Program-made: the position numbers and the translations under genes
Assembly: GCF_006538365.1 (NCBI RefSeq)
Contig: NZ_BJKN01000003.1
Location: 329,965 to 393,964 of the forward strand
Origin: Moorella sp. E308F
Lineage (GTDB): Bacteria; Bacillota; DSM-521; Neomoorellales; Neomoorellaceae
Direction of reading: 5' to 3'
Length of the DNA: 64,000 bases
In this document: piece after piece, positions 30,120 to 60,604 of the stretch
Numbering within the stretch: the stretch's first letter is position 1
Layout: the number at the start of each line of letters is the position of its first letter
The notes under the pieces: model-generated
The model's database searches: none
Told to the model about the DNA's origin: nothing
The model's input: the letters and a program-made list of their open reading frames with translations, nothing else

Positions 30120-32032
30120 ATCCAACAGCCAGCCTGATTTATCGCAAAAACGCTCGCCTGTTACAAAGGTATAGCCCGGAGCTGTTTCGCGACCTTGAAA
30201 AGGCAAGTTTACCTGACAAATGGCAAGTCATTCTGTCCCGCAGCGGGGAACCCACGGTGATAGTTATTACCCCGGACCAGGAATTCGCCCTGCATAGCCG
30301 CTATGATCCGAAACGGGAGGCTGAAACCTGGGCCGGGAGTATTAACGCCGATGCTGAGATGCTGGTCATCCTGGGCCTTGGCCTGGGCTATCACCTGGAG
30401 GCATTGCGGCGGTTGCATCCCCGGAAAACCATTCTGGTGCTGGAACCGCAGCTGGAGGCTGTCAAGCTCGCTTTTGCCACCCGAGATATGAGCAGCCTTC
30501 TTAAAAGCGGCCAGTTCTATCTCTTGGTTGTACCTGACCCGGGGGATGCAGCGGCCCAACTAGCCGCCATCCTGGCTGAAAACGCCGGTAAAAAGATATC
30601 TTTAGAGGCCCTGCCGGCTTACCAGAGGATTTATAAAGAATACTGGCACCGTGTTTGCCAGGAGGTCACCGACAGGCTGCGGCAGCGTCGGGTCAACTGG
30701 GCCACTACGGAAAACTTTATGTACCAGTGGTTGTATAATTATCGCCATAATTTTTTCTCCTATATAAATGCACCGGGAGTGAACCGCCTTTTTGATTCTT
30801 TTGCCGGCAGGCCGGCGATAATCGTTGCTGCCGGGCCATCGCTGGAAAAAAATATCCACCTCCTGCCGTCACTCAAGGAAAAAGCCCTTATCCTGGCAGC
30901 CGGGTCAGCTATCAGGGTTCTGGAGAAAAACGGTATTAAGCCCCACCTCCTGGTTTCTTTTGATCCAGGAGAAGCTAATTACCAGCACTTTGCCGGTTTC
31001 GATGGGAGCGATATACCCCTGGTTTACGCGCCGGTCATCTACCCCCGTATTATCCAGGAGTACCCGGGGCCGCTTTTAAGCTGCGAACTAAATGTATCCC
31101 CTTTTATTGAGTGGTTTGACGAGAAAATAGGCGACAGAAAAGGCATCCTCATCAGCGGGCCTTCGGTAGCCAACGTTTGCCTCGACCTGGCAGTGAAACT
31201 GGGAGCCAACCCTATTATCCTTGTGGGGCAGGACCTGGCCTTTACCAATAATAAAACCCATGCCGACGGCGCCAGGCATCAAAAGAGCATCGATCCTGAA
31301 AAGGGTAAGTATATCTGGGTAGAAGATATTTACGGTGGCAAGGTGCCTACCACTACGGCTTTTTATTCTATGCTGGTTTGGTTTGAGCAGTATTTGCGGG
31401 CTCTAGAGGGGAAAAGGCTGGTGATTGATGCTACCGAAGGGGGCGCCCGCATCCGAGGGACAGAAGTTATGCCCCTCCAGGAGGTTGCCGGTCGTTACTT
31501 GCAACAGGAGTTTGCCCCAGCAAAAATAATCGCGGAAAGGATTGCCGGTTACTCGCCGCCCGGGCCTGATCAAATGCGCCGGTTACGGGAGGCGCTGGAT
31601 GAACTCGGGACCTCCCGGAAAGACCTGCGGTCCTGTTTTGAAGAGGGGATAAAGGTAGCCCAAAGCTTGCTGGAAAAATGCCAGAAGAGAACGGTAAAAC
31701 CAGCCAATTATGAGAGGGCAAGGAGAAAATTTGCGAGCTTAGACCGACGCATAACGCAAAATACTTTTTACCGCTTATTTATTATCCAGGGCCTGGCCGC
31801 CCGTATCGATGCCATTAACCGGGTCCTTAGTGAAAGGCTGAACGAAGAAAAGGATTTGCCCGCCAAAGGAGGAAAGTTAGCTTCTTTATATTTAACATTC
31901 TTCACCGAGGTCGAACGTTACGCCGGCTATACTGAGGCTTTGTTAAAAGAAATAGCAGCAGGACTTGAAGAACGGGAACCAAGACTGTCAGAGGGTGAGA
32001 CGGGGGACCGGGTTAATCAAAATCAGCGATAG
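30116..32032 (+). CDS. Motility-associated factor (Maf/DUF115) flagellin glycosyltransferase
   Basis: 638 residues from GTG 30116. The central region has the MAF/MptE-like fold: LVILGLGLGYHLEALRRLHP with LVLEPQLEAVKLA, then AIIVAAGPSLEKNIHLLPSL, LILAAGSAIRVLEKNGIKPH and LVSFDPGEANYQHF, and IILVGQDLAFTNNKTHADGA. Maf proteins attach pseudaminic or legionaminic acid to Ser/Thr of flagellin in the cytoplasm before export. The gene lies between flagellin and the filament-cap operon, with the CMP-pseudaminic acid pathway directly upstream. The last 100 residues are a helical tail. Its 3' end overlaps the convergent endonuclease gene by 20 bases. Confidence 0.87.
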   Translation: MNPTASLIYRKNARLLQRYSPELFRDLEKASLPDKWQVILSRSGEPTVIVITPDQEFALHSRYDPKREAETWAGSINADAEMLVILGLGLGYHLEALRRLHPRKTILVLEPQLEAVKLAFATRDMSSLLKSGQFYLLVVPDPGDAAAQLAAILAENAGKKISLEALPAYQRIYKEYWHRVCQEVTDRLRQRRVNWATTENFMYQWLYNYRHNFFSYINAPGVNRLFDSFAGRPAIIVAAGPSLEKNIHLLPSLKEKALILAAGSAIRVLEKNGIKPHLLVSFDPGEANYQHFAGFDGSDIPLVYAPVIYPRIIQEYPGPLLSCELNVSPFIEWFDEKIGDRKGILISGPSVANVCLDLAVKLGANPIILVGQDLAFTNNKTHADGARHQKSIDPEKGKYIWVEDIYGGKVPTTTAFYSMLVWFEQYLRALEGKRLVIDATEGGARIRGTEVMPLQEVAGRYLQQEFAPAKIIAERIAGYSPPGPDQMRRLREALDELGTSRKDLRSCFEEGIKVAQSLLEKCQKRTVKPANYERARRKFASLDRRITQNTFYRLFIIQGLAARIDAINRVLSERLNEEKDLPAKGGKLASLYLTFFTEVERYAGYTEALLKEIAAGLEEREPRLSEGETGDRVNQNQR

Positions 32033-32903
32033 TGTTCTGGCAGTTTGCCCCAAAACGCCTGCGCAGTTCCGCGTCCTTGGCTAAGAGCCGCCGGGTTATG
32101 TCCAGCCGCTTTGCTTTGGAGGGTATCATATCGGTATAAGGTTTAATCAAAGCGATTAATTGTTTAATCGTCGCCTGCCGCCCGCTGTCAAGGCCGTATC
32201 CATGGCCGTAAGGGAAGGGTTTTAAGCGTAAAGTCAGGCCAAATATCTTTTCCAGATGCTGGCGTAGTAAATCGTTTTCTTGTGCTGTAAAGGCAAAGGT
32301 ATAAAAAGTAAGGCGCGGGAAGATATAAAAGCCGTCTTTTTTACGGCTATAGTTTATAACCAGGCTGCCATCATCCATAAAAAGGCAGGCCAGGCCTACT
32401 GGATGGGTAAGTAATTTTATATTTTCTGGTGTGAGGCATTTGCGATTATTGATGTAGAAGATGTTGTATAACCGGGTAAGAACAGGCAGGGATGGGCTAC
32501 GCAAATGGTTGTCCTTTGAAATTTTAAAACCCAGTCCTTTCAGCTGTCTGGCTTTCCAAACCCGGTAGTCCCGTTGGGATGGGGCAAAATGTTCGCGATA
32601 AAATGCCTGGCGGCTACGCGGTGCGAAACTTAGGCAGCCATCGCCCATTAAGCTACCGACGATGATATTTAGTTCATACGAGTTTAGCTCAAGGTCCGGT
32701 AGATTATTTAAATATTTTTCTTCCTTGGCTTGCATCAGTTTTTTATGTAGCTCTTTCTTATAGCTATCGCTTTTTTTAATACCATAACGAGAGGCGAGTT
32801 TGCGCAACTTATTTTCGGTTATTCCCAGCTTTTCTGCCAAGAGCTTATTATCGGTATCGGGGTAATGTTGGGCTAAATAGGCTTGCAAGTCTTCATTTGA
32901 CAT
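32013..32903 (-). CDS. LAGLIDADG homing endonuclease, free-standing
   Basis: 296 residues from ATG 32903 (AGGTGCGAGG upstream on this strand). An N-terminal helix-turn-helix-like region (NKLLAEKLGITENKLRKLAS) is followed by two LAGLIDADG-type motifs, LNIIVGSLMGDGCLSF and VGLACLFMDDGSLVIN, each with the acidic metal ligand. The rest (FAPSQRDYRVWKARQLKGLG, IKPYTDMIPSKAKRLDI) matches single-chain LAGLIDADG DNA endonucleases. It is not inside an intron or intein; it stands alone, convergent with maf and overlapping it by 20 bases. Such genes are mobile and may have come with island DNA. Confidence 0.82.
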   Translation of the reverse strand: MSNEDLQAYLAQHYPDTDNKLLAEKLGITENKLRKLASRYGIKKSDSYKKELHKKLMQAKEEKYLNNLPDLELNSYELNIIVGSLMGDGCLSFAPRSRQAFYREHFAPSQRDYRVWKARQLKGLGFKISKDNHLRSPSLPVLTRLYNIFYINNRKCLTPENIKLLTHPVGLACLFMDDGSLVINYSRKKDGFYIFPRLTFYTFAFTAQENDLLRQHLEKIFGLTLRLKPFPYGHGYGLDSGRQATIKQLIALIKPYTDMIPSKAKRLDITRRLLAKDAELRRRFGANCQNTIADFD

Positions 32904-33113
32904 CCTCGCACCTACTTTTATCAGGTAGAGAAAGGCTATTTTTAATATACCATACGAACTAATGTGCGTCAATACTCTTGTAGTCTAGAAAAAACGTAAT
33001 AATCATCTCACAGCTTGACCAGCATCGAGGCGGGTTAAAGTTCCGCAAGGTAAGACTAGCTTTTGCAGATGAAAAGGCAGCTTAATTGTATTGCTTATAT
33101 TATGGAAGATTCA

Positions 33114-37084: not shown

Positions 37085-37654
37085 CTAATCTCCCGGTAAA
37101 ATATCCTGGACGGGAATGTTTAGCCCCGGGAAAGCCAGCGGTGAAATATGGTCGCCGCGCCCGTATTCTTTAACCTCTCTATACCCGGAGGGCGAAGGCA
37201 GGCGATAGGCAGTCACCTGCTGCGCCTGCAGGTTAACCAGCCATACTTCCTTAACCCCACCCTTTGCATAGAGGTTTGCCTTTACTTCGCGGTCATAAGC
37301 CATCGAAGTGTCGGACACCTCGACTAACAACAATACGTCCTCCGGCCGGGGGTGGAAAGAAGCATAATAATCATCACGGGCCTTAAGCAACATCAAGTCA
37401 GGCTGGGGTTCCGAGTGTTGGTCCAGGCGTAAAGGGTTGTTGGTGTCTACCAGGGCATTATCGCCTATTTTGGTGCTAAAGATATGAAGCAGCCGTCTGA
37501 CACACGCGGCGTGCCTGGTCCCTATCGGCACCATCTCTATAATCTCCCCCTCGATCAGCTCTACCCGGTCGTCTTCTCCCAGGATGCCTGCCCGGGCCAT
37601 CTGGTAAAACTCCTCAACAGTAAAACGTCGGCGAGGAACCTCGACTGCCGCCAT
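37085..37654 (-). CDS. Uma2-family (DUF820) putative nuclease
   Basis: 189 residues from ATG 37654 with AAAGGGGGG upstream on the minus strand. FTVEEFYQMARAGILGEDDR with VELIEGEIIEMVPIG, then SEPQPDLMLLKARDDYYASF, DVLLLVEVSDTSMAYDREVK and YAKGGVKEVWLVNLQAQQVT, give the full PD-(D/E)XK Uma2 pattern with PD, EV and K in place. It is the second Uma2 gene of the window and belongs to a different subgroup from 20201-20827. It separates the filament operon from the basal-body operon and points the other way. Confidence 0.83.
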   Translation of the reverse strand: MAAVEVPRRRFTVEEFYQMARAGILGEDDRVELIEGEIIEMVPIGTRHAACVRRLLHIFSTKIGDNALVDTNNPLRLDQHSEPQPDLMLLKARDDYYASFHPRPEDVLLLVEVSDTSMAYDREVKANLYAKGGVKEVWLVNLQAQQVTAYRLPSPSGYREVKEYGRGDHISPLAFPGLNIPVQDILPGD

Positions 37655-37853: not shown

Positions 37854-37935
37854 GGTTGATTTTCTCCCGACATGCAGGAATTTGGCAAATCGTGTTGAAT
37901 AAATATCGAAAATACAACGGTAAAATTTTCTTACT

Positions 37936-38114
37936 CCGGGCGTCAAGGGCAAGCTCTCCGAAAGGGGATGCGCGCAAAGCCATGGGTCTAAGGTCCGTGT
38001 CTTCCGGGGCAGGGCTTGTACGCTTCTTGTTTCTAGCCCCGGGGTGAAGGACTATGACTGCCAGGCCGCCGTTCCCGGTTCCTTTGAGACGCCCGGTAAA
38101 CGGGCTTTTCTTTT
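37936..38114 (+). promoter_or_regulatory. c-di-GMP-I (GEMM) riboswitch with terminator, heading the flagellar operon
   Basis: The core follows the GEMM-I pattern: GGGCAAGC, a stem capped by a CGAAAG tetraloop, GCGCAAAGCC, GGGTCTAAGG, a variable P3 arm (37998-38049) and ACTATGACTGCCAGGCCGCC. An intrinsic terminator follows (GCCCG 38091-38095, GTAAA, CGGGC 38101-38105, then TTTTCTTTT). The 5' strand CCGGGCGTC (37936-37944) is a perfect complement of GACGCCCGG (38088-38096), which includes the terminator's 5' arm, and it can also pair with CCCGG at 38074-38078. The ligand therefore probably chooses between aptamer closure and termination. C-di-GMP thus controls read-through into flgB and about 25 kb of flagellar genes; the direction (on or off) cannot be decided by eye. 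Confidence 0.85.
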
Positions 38115-38234
38115 AGGACTAAAGTCCCAGACTAATTTGGGCCTTAAGCCCGATACCCAAATTCCCATAGAAATGCTAAAGTGGTAACCGCTGGAGAAAA
38201 ATATCGTTTTTCCGGGAAAGAGGGGGAAACCTGG

Positions 38235-38633
38235 ATGTTTATGACGCCGGCTTTATATGTCCTGGAAAAGGCCCTGGACACGGCGGCTTTACGCCAGCGG
38301 GTCATCGCCCACAACATCGCCAACGTCAATACCCCGGGCTTCAAGCGCTATGATGTCTCCTTTGAAGAGAAACTCGGCCAGGCCCTGGGACTGGAGCCGG
38401 GTCTAACCCTGTACCGTACGAACCCCTATCATCTGCCGTCAGCCAGTCTGGATCTTACCCCGGAGGTTAATCAGGATAACAGCACCACGATGCGTCAGGA
38501 CGGCAATAACGTAGATATCGACCGGGAGATGGTCGACCTGGCCCAGAACAGCTTGAACTTTAACTTTGCCGTCCAGCAGCTAAACGGCCGGCTGGCCATG
38601 CTGCGCTATGTGATTAACGAAGGGAGGCGGTAG
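38235..38633 (+). CDS. flgB: Flagellar basal-body rod protein FlgB
   Basis: 132 residues from ATG 38235 with AGGGGG eight bases upstream. YVLEKALDTAALRQRVIAHN and IANVNTPGFKRYDVSFEEKL are the rod-protein N-terminus; DGNNVDIDREMVDLAQNSLN and QQLNGRLAMLRYVINEGRR the C-terminus. FlgB forms the proximal rod next to the MS-ring. It is the first gene after the c-di-GMP riboswitch. Hairpin-prone sequence (GGGCCTTAAGCCC) lies between terminator and start. Confidence 0.94.
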   Translation: MFMTPALYVLEKALDTAALRQRVIAHNIANVNTPGFKRYDVSFEEKLGQALGLEPGLTLYRTNPYHLPSASLDLTPEVNQDNSTTMRQDGNNVDIDREMVDLAQNSLNFNFAVQQLNGRLAMLRYVINEGRR

Positions 38634-39061: not shown

Positions 39062-39385
39062 AGGTATGGTATGGCTGCCGCCCCAGCCATGAAGTATGAA
39101 AATATATGGCTGGGAAAAGGGGCTGGAGGGTACAGGCGGAGGGCGACTTGGTTCGAGGCGTCAGCAAACTCAGCGAAGCCGTAGCGAGGCGGCGGTGAAC
39201 GGGATGGGGATCGTAACGTGGCTTAGGAATAAGAAGTAGCACACCCCGTGATGCATGATTGAAACGCCAAAAGTTTAGCCACCCCCGCCGCCGAGCAAGG
39301 CTGAGCGCTAAGTTTGCTAGCTGAGAACCACCGGAGCCCGGAGGCTGTACCCTCCAGCCTGAAGGAAGCTGGGTTATAACTTTCA
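39062..39385 (+). ncRNA. Structured RNA-like element D between flgC and fliE
   Basis: A non-coding stretch of about 320 bases with extensive pairing potential. A 5' hairpin (ATGGCTG/CAGCCAT) is followed by ATGAAAAT, then by a 15-base segment at 39121-39135 (GGCTGGAGGGTACAG) whose exact complement CTGTACCCTCCAGCC lies at 39345-39359. Inside this helix are further long-range pairs (AGCAAACT with AGTTTGCT, GCGGCGG with CCGCCGC). The motif GCGACTTGGTTCGAG is shared with three other elements in the operon. CTGA follows the closing helix. It shares an exact 41-base block with element C. I find no protein-coding frame. See the findings for the family hypothesis. Confidence 0.7.
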
Positions 39386-39399
39386 GGAGGAAAATGCAC

Positions 39400-54923: not shown

Positions 54924-55070
54924 GAGCCCCTCATGGTGGCTGACGCCTCCACGAGCGAACCATGAAAATGGAGGCTGAGGCAAAAGGCTGGAGGGTACAG
55001 GCGGAGGGCGACTTGGTTCGAGGCGTAAGTAAACTAATTTTGGGTGGGGATATGTCCCCACCAGAAGGCA
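54924..55070 (+). ncRNA. Truncated structured element C between flhB and flhA
   Basis: The front of the same kind of element as D: GAGCC, a hairpin TCATGG/CCATGA, CATGAAAAT, and a 41-base block (54986-55026) identical to 39121-39161 including GCGACTTGGTTCGAG. After GTAAACT the relation ends: neither the complementary 3' strand of the closing helix nor the central domain is present. Instead a GTGGGGATATGTCCCCAC hairpin lies at 55045-55062. It is a 5' fragment left by deletion. A reading frame that crosses it into flhA (from 54962) is not real; flhA has its own start at 55112. Confidence 0.65.
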
Positions 55071-58350: not shown

Positions 58351-59167
58351 ACTGGTATACAGACGGCTGGAAGAGCGGTCCAGGGTAATTGCCATAGCCA
58401 GCGGTAAAGGCGGCGTGGGCAAGACCAATATTGCCTTAAATCTGGGCCTGATCCTGGCCCGCCAGGGTCTGCGGACCCTCCTCTTTGATGCCGACCTGGG
58501 CCTGGCCAATGTGGATATCCTCATGGGCCTGGTACCCCGTTACAGCCTGAAAGAAGTCATCGGCGGGCAGTGTACTTTAGAAGAAGTGATTATCCGCGGC
58601 CCTCATGACCTGCTCCTGGTGCCGGGGGCCTCCGGTATCCAGGAACTGGCCGACCTGGACCCCCCGGCCCGCGACCGGCTTATTCATGACCTGGCGTTTC
58701 TAGCGACTAAGGTGGATATAATCCTGGTCGATTCTGGTGCCGGCATTTCCCGGACGGTTTTCAGCTTTGCAGCTGCCGCCGGAGAAGCCATTGTGGTAGC
58801 AACGCCGGAACCTACTTCCATAACCGATGCCTATGGTTTAATCAAAGGGTTGCAGCGTTTAAAAGTAAGCATGCATCTTATCGTTAACAGGGCTACCAAT
58901 AAGCTGGAGGGGCAGCAGGCCGCCGGGCGACTCCAGGGTGCCTGCCGCCGTTTTTTGCAGCTGGAGCTGCCGCTCCTGGGGATTATTCCCGAGGACTCCC
59001 GGGTAGGTCAGGCGGTGCGCTGCCAGCAGCCATTCAGCGAATTGTTTCCCCGTTGCCCGGCGGCCCGGGCCCTGGAAGAAGCCGCCGCCAAACTTCAGGG
59101 CCAGGAACTGCCGGCAGGCCGGAGCCAGGGATTCTGGCAGCGCCTGGGCCGTTTGCTGGGAAGATAA
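58325..59167 (+). CDS. flhG: MinD-like ATPase FlhG (YlxH/FleN)
   Basis: 280 residues from ATG 58325, overlapping flhF by 26 bases. MDQAGRLRKLVYRRLEERSR contains the short activator segment that stimulates FlhF GTPase. The deviant Walker A IASGKGGVGKTNIALNLGL (residues 24-42), LLFDADLGLANVDILMGLVP and IILVDSGAGISRTVFSFAAA complete the MinD fold. It limits flagellar number and antagonises FlhF. The C-terminal membrane-binding helix may be QGFWQRLGRLLGR. Confidence 0.93.
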   Translation: MDQAGRLRKLVYRRLEERSRVIAIASGKGGVGKTNIALNLGLILARQGLRTLLFDADLGLANVDILMGLVPRYSLKEVIGGQCTLEEVIIRGPHDLLLVPGASGIQELADLDPPARDRLIHDLAFLATKVDIILVDSGAGISRTVFSFAAAAGEAIVVATPEPTSITDAYGLIKGLQRLKVSMHLIVNRATNKLEGQQAAGRLQGACRRFLQLELPLLGIIPEDSRVGQAVRCQQPFSELFPRCPAARALEEAAAKLQGQELPAGRSQGFWQRLGRLLGR

Positions 59168-59181
59168 GAAGGGGGGGTATC

Positions 59182-59856
59182 ATGGCCAGGCCAAACTTTA
59201 TTATGATAAATCAACCCATAATCATCAAAACTCCTGGCAGTAAAGATCTCCGCACCATTATTCAGGATACGCGGGAAGACGGCTTTGCCGTCCTTGCTCC
59301 GGGGAGTGATGAACTGGTCCTGGCACCGGGGAACGTTGTCGAGGTTGCCTGCAACCGGCAGGATGCCCGTTATGAATTCACTACTAAAGTACAGCGTTAC
59401 CTGCCGGGAGAGCCCCCCCTTTACTACCTGGCCTACCCGGACGATTATCGGCGCATCCAGGCGCGCTCCCATGTGCGGGCCAAGGCGGCCCTGGAATTTC
59501 GTTATGCCGTCTGGCTGAAGGACGACTGGCCCTACCGCCCGCCCCGGCCCTATAAAAAGGGGGTAACGGTAGATATAAGCGGCGGCGGTGCGCAACTGGT
59601 CCTCCGGGACCCCGTTGAGGTGGGCGACCTCCTTTACCTGGAACTTCACCTGCCCGGTCGCCGCCGCCATATGCCCATGCGCCTGGCGGGGCGCGTCAAG
59701 CGCGTGGCCCCGCGGGAAATAGACGGCGTGACGCGTTATGAAGTTGGTGTGGCCTTTGAGGGTATCAGCGAAAGGCAGGAAGACCAAATCGTTGCCTTTG
59801 TTTTCCAGCGGTTGCTAGAAGAAAGGCGCCGGGGAGAGAGAGAAAATGGCAGTTAA
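59182..59856 (+). CDS. PilZ-domain c-di-GMP receptor, flagellar brake type (YcgR/YpfA-like)
   Basis: 224 residues from ATG 59182, behind AAGGGGGGG. The N-terminal half (FAVLAPGSDELVLAPGNVVE, VACNRQDARYEFTTKVQRYL) is the YcgR-N (PilZN) domain. The PilZ half has RRIQARSHVRAKAALEFRYA with the Arg motif and VTVDISGGGAQLVLRDPVEV with the D-x-S-G-G-G motif, which together bind c-di-GMP. Such proteins bind the motor and slow it when c-di-GMP is high. With the riboswitch at 37936 the operon has both transcript-level and protein-level c-di-GMP control. Confidence 0.9.
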   Translation: MARPNFIMINQPIIIKTPGSKDLRTIIQDTREDGFAVLAPGSDELVLAPGNVVEVACNRQDARYEFTTKVQRYLPGEPPLYYLAYPDDYRRIQARSHVRAKAALEFRYAVWLKDDWPYRPPRPYKKGVTVDISGGGAQLVLRDPVEVGDLLYLELHLPGRRRHMPMRLAGRVKRVAPREIDGVTRYEVGVAFEGISERQEDQIVAFVFQRLLEERRRGERENGS

Positions 59857-60604
59857 GGATAGCGCCATGTGGGCCGCGTACCTGGCCGGAAAGGGAGATG
59901 CCGGGCGCCGGGAACTGGTCCTCAAGTACCTGCCCCTGGTGAAATACCATGTGGGCCGCCTGGCAGTCAAACCGCCGCGGCACCTGGACCAGGAAGACCT
60001 GGTTGGTTATGGCATAATCGGGTTGCTGGAGGCCATTGACCGTTATGATCCTTCCCGGGGCGTTAACTTTGAAAGCTTTGCCTCCCAGCGCATTCGCGGG
60101 GCTATCCTCGATGCCCTGCGCCAATCCCACTGGGCCCCCCGCACCCTGGTGGAAAAGCTGCGCCGGGTGAGCCAGGTGTACCGCCGCCTGGAGCAGGAAC
60201 AGGGGAGCGAGGTAAGTGATGCAGTGGTGGCGGCGGCGGCAGGGATAACGGTGGATGAGCTCAAGGAACTCTTGGAGCGGGGTTCCCAGATGGCTGTCCT
60301 TTCCCTGGAAGACTTTCTTTTTGACCGGGAAGGGGAGGAGGGTTCAACCCGGGGAGAACTGCTGGCCGATCCCCAGAGCCCGGATCCTGCCGGCCGTTAT
60401 GAGCAGGAGGAACTCCGCCGCGCCCTGATAGAGGGTCTCCAGCATTTAAACGATAAAGATCGCCTGGTCCTCACTCTGTATTATTACGAAGGCTTGACCT
60501 TAAAGGAGATCGGCAAAATACTGGGAGTCTCCGAATCCCGGGTCTGCCAGCTCCACGGCCGGGCAATCTTAAACCTACGCCGCTATTTAGCCGATTTTAT
60601 GTAG
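59846..60604 (+). CDS. fliA: RNA polymerase sigma factor for flagellar genes, FliA/SigD
   Basis: 252 residues from ATG 59846, overlapping the PilZ gene by 11 bases. Region 2: LVLKYLPLVKYHVGRLAVKP, DLVGYGIIGLLEAIDRYDPS, FESFASQRIRGAILDALRQS. Region 4: LNDKDRLVLTLYYYEGLTLK, EIGKILGVSESRVCQLHGRA. It recognises the TAAA-N15-GCCGATAT promoters seen before flgL, fliC and flaG. Being inside the riboswitch-led operon, the late genes also come under c-di-GMP control indirectly. Confidence 0.94.
   Translation: MAVKDSAMWAAYLAGKGDAGRRELVLKYLPLVKYHVGRLAVKPPRHLDQEDLVGYGIIGLLEAIDRYDPSRGVNFESFASQRIRGAILDALRQSHWAPRTLVEKLRRVSQVYRRLEQEQGSEVSDAVVAAAAGITVDELKELLERGSQMAVLSLEDFLFDREGEEGSTRGELLADPQSPDPAGRYEQEELRRALIEGLQHLNDKDRLVLTLYYYEGLTLKEIGKILGVSESRVCQLHGRAILNLRRYLADFM

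Follow-up and report, generated by a model that had tools for sequence, protein, structure and literature searches.

A predicted c-di-GMP-I OFF riboswitch ahead of flgB in Moorella sp. E308F and its relatives, followed by a putative second promoter

In the window (the whole 64-kb stretch of DNA that we analyzed), the first gene of the flagellar operon is flgB (38235-38633, + strand; Flg_bb_rod, PF00460). Pfam matches define a downstream flagellar cluster (38636-63598, + strand), with flgC, fliE, fliF, fliG, fliH, fliI, fliJ, fliK, flgD, flgE, flbD, motA, motB, fliL, a fliN-like gene, fliO, fliP, fliR, flhB, flhA, flhF, and flhG. FlgF/G-type genes, a PilZ/YcgR-type gene (59053-59856, + strand), and a sigma-28-type gene (59846-60604, + strand) are also present. 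All flagellar genes lie on the + strand, from flgB to at least 63.6 kb of the window, which bears out the flagellar context described in the initial annotation. The named organisms closest to the source are Moorella (Neomoorella) stamsii and mulderi, and the genome contains 10 GGDEF and 6 EAL matches. A plasmid origin of the flgB leader was rejected, as the leader had no plasmid match.

Other elements lie near or within the flagellar genes. A Uma2-type putative endonuclease gene (37085-37654) and a LAGLIDADG endonuclease gene (32013-32972) are on the - strand. The gap between flgC and fliE (39062-39393) holds an interspersed, MITE-like repeat of ~280 nt with 15-bp terminal inverted repeats, which folds as a long hairpin (z -5.8) and had no match in Rfam; a fragment of it lies near 54937-55035. 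There are seven matches to this repeat in the same genome and ~40 in each of three other genomes of the genus. At the flgB locus it is intact in the window only, with a shortened version in L040.

In the flgB leader, positions 37938-38073 (+ strand) correspond to a c-di-GMP-I (GEMM-I) aptamer whose P3 hairpin is enlarged by a 51-nt insert. The initial annotation had proposed this class and an Rfam search as the check; covariance model RF01051 matched over its full length (1-87) with 52.6 bits, compared to a gathering score of 35 (E 2.1e-7 in the 64-kb window), and was the sole Rfam family above its own cut-off in the window. In the predicted fold, the helices match the P1-P2-P3 three-way junction of the model, with a GNRA loop (CCGAAAGG) that may make a tetraloop-receptor contact, and the one non-standard pair in the aptamer is an A37978.C38067 mismatch. 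The positions described as contacting c-di-GMP, G20, A47, and C92 (PMC4744006, PMC11218506), have equivalents in the Rfam alignment at G37948, A37976, and one of the two cytosines C38069/38070. Judged from its sequence, the element appears to be a genuine, probably functional c-di-GMP-I riboswitch, and c-di-GMP is its presumed ligand.

Six further GEMM-I aptamers are listed in this genome (L001-L006), with scores of 69.6-85.5 bits. From their translations, the genes that clearly follow these copies are chemoreceptor-like or, in one case, a type IV pilus PilC/GspF-like gene. Since L006 lies just ~55 nt ahead of the PilC-like start codon, it may act on translation.

As a whole-genome RF01051 search missed the window copy, apparently losing copies with long inserts, leaders from other genomes were gathered via the FlgB protein. 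The flgB locus was found in 16 of the 18 family genomes, and RF01051 matched upstream of it in all 16. Matches in the flgB leader were present in Moorella stamsii, mulderi, sulfitireducens, and thermoacetica, in Thermincola, and in several other Clostridia and Bacillota MAGs, while many other Bacillota flgB loci, including those of Carboxydothermus, Desulfosporosinus, and Caloramator, gave no match to RF01051. Thermincola-type leaders (L085, L088, L093, L096, and L081) carry GGGAGGT and a start codon overlapping the terminator (MPNYGS..LDFY); this ORF could encode a leader peptide or be a by-product of the conserved terminator.

The window copy scores below the other six copies in its genome, which could mean that the A.C mismatch and the 51-nt insert abolish binding, leaving a constitutive attenuator only. 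One family leader does look broken: L046 (genome G015), near a contig end, has a truncated, degenerate aptamer with neither GGCAA nor a GNRA loop. In the window, however, the core, tetraloop, and contact bases are all intact, and L040 and L044, which have the same mismatch and insert, still keep P1, the binding pocket, and the antiterminator described below. The long P3 insert depresses the Rfam score of the window copy. We consider loss of binding very improbable.

In GEMM-I relatives, an A at position 20 goes with cGAMP sensing, and L047 (genome G011) has A rather than G at this position in its flgB leader. An aptamer of this type could sense another cyclic dinucleotide, such as 3′,3′-cGAMP, and cGAMP-sensing GEMM-I relatives are known (cited in PMC11477304). 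The window has G at position 20 (G37948) and so lacks the A of the GEMM-Ib cGAMP type; the other intact family leaders seen also have G there. That the window aptamer senses such a ligand is extremely improbable.

Following PMC9262584, we designated the switching strands P (CCGGG(CGUC)), A (CCCGG), T (GACGCCCGG), and H (CGGGC), where P-A forms P1, T-H the terminator, and P-T the antiterminator. The initial annotation had pointed to two alternative pairings of the 5′ strand, and both are exact: CCGGG (37936-37940, + strand) pairs with CCCGG (38074-38078, + strand) as P1, and CCGGGCGUC (37936-37944) is a 9-bp complement of GACGCCCGG (38088-38096). The intrinsic terminator, GCCCG-GUAAA-CGGGC then UUUUCUUUU (38091-38114, + strand), is also at the place given there. 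Its hairpin (38091-38105) has five G-C pairs and a 5-nt loop, its U-tract (38106-38114) has eight U among nine bases, and 120 bases separate the end of this tract from the start of flgB. Pairing and folding energies extend the antiterminator to 9+4 bp: its 5′ strand, CCGGGCGUC plus AAGG (37936-37948, + strand), pairs with CCUU-uga-GACGCCCGG (38081-38096, + strand), which also holds the terminator 5′ arm, and the extra AAGG/CCUU pairing (with 38081-38084) captures the ligand-contact base G20 (37948). Paired with the aptamer strand, the terminator arm gave a better duplex energy than with 98.8% of dinucleotide-shuffled aptamers (p 0.012). The intrinsic terminator and this alternative pairing, which blocks the aptamer, thus exclude each other, and ligand-dependent termination is predicted.

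The window riboswitch very likely works as an OFF switch at the level of flgB-operon transcription. Initiation would occur upstream of the riboswitch, probably at a sigma-H-like promoter. With c-di-GMP bound, P1 (37936-37940/38074-38078) would be held and the terminator 5′ arm (38091-38095) left free to form the 5-bp GC terminator, such that transcription would stop at the U-tract. In the ligand-free RNA, the 5′ P1 strand together with the neighboring AAGG of the aptamer would pair with 38081-38084 and 38088-38096, blocking the terminator and removing G20 from the binding pocket. Since the terminator would be blocked, RNA polymerase would read on into flgB and the PilZ/YcgR-type and sigma-28-type genes.

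The initial annotation held that either direction was possible. In an ON switch, the 9-bp helix 37936-37944/38088-38096 would serve as a longer P1 of the bound aptamer, resulting in antitermination and expression of the flagellar genes. As secondary structure, this helix is compatible with P1b, P2, and P3, and GEMM-I ON versions exist (pilM, PMC9262584). Energy alone does not bar this direction: for RNA ending at 38105 at 37 °C, the antiterminator with a bindable core (-70.6 kcal/mol) equals the bindable P1 plus terminator (-68.9 to -70.0 kcal/mol). The antiterminator that is preferred, however, uses AAGG including G20; its ensemble came to -78.2 kcal/mol (-77.7 kcal/mol with the core extension), and keeping the core free made it ~7 kcal/mol less stable. 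At 58 °C too, bindable P1 plus terminator was the least stable state at 38105. As the antiterminator is ahead of that state by ~9 kcal/mol in a simple thermodynamic model at 38105, switching must be kinetic, with ligand bound before 38096 is transcribed, or the calculated energies are inaccurate.

Comparison of leaders also bears on direction. Matched P1 strands were more stable than mismatched ones (-7.9 vs -5.5 kcal/mol) in a permutation test in which kinship was corrected through clade representatives alone (p 5e-5 for 20 leaders; p 1e-4 for 11 clade representatives). Matched antiterminators were likewise better, with a weaker signal (p 0.008 for 20 leaders; 0.026 for 11 clade representatives). 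P1 is kept while its sequence varies: CCGGG/CCCGG in the window, AACCGG/UCGGUU in G011, CUUGAAC/GUUUAAG in G012, and a perfect 9-bp CUCCAGGAA/UUCCUGGAG in G016. Thus covariation across clades supports a P1 with a short 3′ linker. In an ON switch, the 3′ strand would be separated from the core by 17 nt, yet the P1 that covaries lies within a few nt of the core.

The partner of the terminator 5′ arm, before the 3′ arm is made, varies among relatives: it is the P1 5′ strand in the window, thermoacetica, G004, G007, G009, and G011, largely the aptamer core in sulfitireducens, G010, and G012, and a P3 strand in stamsii, mulderi, and G008. Since all three types of pairing compete with the ligand-bound aptamer, OFF is predicted; invasion of the core itself in several relatives counts against an ON switch. 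The partner is weak or unclear in G014, G016, and G017, which counts against the OFF model. c-di-GMP usually represses motility, also contrary to an ON switch. On balance, P1 covariation, G20 capture, and the pairings of relatives, together with the energies, favor the OFF direction, and we regard an ON switch as improbable.

A close counterpart is Cd1 (Cdi1_3), the riboswitch of the Clostridioides difficile flgB operon, which is a published OFF switch, as the initial annotation had stated (PMC3649979, PMC11477304, PMC9262584). Cd1 and the window share the aptamer class, the gene position, an intrinsic terminator, and an operon that includes a flagellar sigma factor, and the direction published for Cd1 is the one predicted here. 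They differ in strand exchange. The Cd1 antiterminator consists of T + A + H, and NMR gave no sign of P1 (PMC9262584), whereas the window has P1, and T would capture the 5′ strand P and the core. From its predicted pairings, the window platform is one that exchanges the 5′ P1 strand, while Cd1 exchanges the 3′ strand (A). Bc1 of the Bacillus cereus group resembles the window in its GAAA tetraloop, its G20/A47/C92-equivalent contacts, and a long expression platform with intrinsic termination, but has two terminators and different target genes (PMC11218506). The pilM GEMM-I element of Geobacter metallireducens has a homologous aptamer that also acts by terminator choice; unlike the window, it is an ON switch for cGAMP, and its terminator forms from T + A + H (PMC9262584). 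Our literature search found no paper on a flgB riboswitch in Moorella.

Promoter-like sites flank the switch. Upstream lies AGGAATTT-N-TGTTGAAT (37876-37900, + strand), which we take to be sigma-H-like from its match to the consensus. This pattern has no other match in the window (chance expectation 0.01), and genome-wide it has 9 matches, some ahead of genes, compared to 0 for a reversed control. In 14 of the 16 flgB leaders the site precedes the aptamer core by 49-55 nt, and in L047 by 77 nt; it was not seen in the remaining one, the truncated L046. Just before the aptamer, a near-palindrome, GTAAAATTTTCTTAC (37920-37934, no strand assigned), is conserved in most relatives and is a possible operator.

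Leader alignment revealed a second set of elements between the terminator and flgB: dyad 1, GGACTAAAGTCC (38116-38127), which is GGAC-YNNR-GTCC in relatives; dyad 2, GGGCCTTAAGCCC (38139-38151), the dyads being unstranded; and a putative extended -10, TGCTAAAGT (38174-38182, + strand), a candidate second promoter downstream of the attenuator. The dyad 1 stem is invariant in 15 aligned leaders. Dyad 1, a second dyad, and T[G/A]NTANANT follow the terminator in all relatives but G011, and with this -10 pattern, defined after inspection of the same alignment, 15 of 16 leaders place the hexamer 61 ± 1 nt past the start of dyad 1. This spacing is held though the intervening sequence is not kept in outer genera. 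In the sixteenth leader, L047 of G011, that place is taken by a second sigma-H-like site, so that one lies on each side of the switch. As a conserved RNA hairpin, the dyads showed no covariation in the 15 aligned leaders and had no Rfam match at a credible E-value. A genome-wide operator made of the dyad pair was rejected, as the pair occurs only at flgB and matches elsewhere are to single dyads.

We infer that the dyad/-10 element is a second promoter, possibly activator-dependent since no good -35 was seen. The element also sets this leader apart from that of Cd1: for the C. difficile operon, transcription is published as starting 496 nt ahead of flgB (PMC3649979), and the operon there is preceded by an invertible DNA switch (PMC7446863). 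The second site may let part of transcription bypass the switch, independently of c-di-GMP. The class, position, and flagellar context given in the initial annotation are supported, but its claim that the riboswitch controls a 25-kb operon is probably overstated, because a conserved promoter-like element separates the terminator from flgB, and the switch may gate only part of flgB-operon transcription. A tentative model, which we hold at somewhat less than even confidence, is family-wide two-layer control, in which a sigma-H-type promoter would read through a four-strand-exchange c-di-GMP OFF switch (P-A with T-H, or P-T), followed by a dyad-controlled bypass promoter.

The strand-exchange variant and the conserved putative bypass promoter are mainly of specialist interest. 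The promoter-like element past the terminator is a warning that a riboswitch heading an operon need not govern all of its expression; if two-layer control is true, c-di-GMP would tune only one of two inputs. The relatives also offer a testable case in which the antiterminator partner shifts between P1 strand, core, and P3 while the predicted OFF logic stays. On our data, riboswitch-based control of the flagellar master operon, described in C. difficile, would also hold for the Neomoorellaceae, acetogenic and mostly thermophilic Clostridia in which every flgB locus found has an aptamer match, and beyond.
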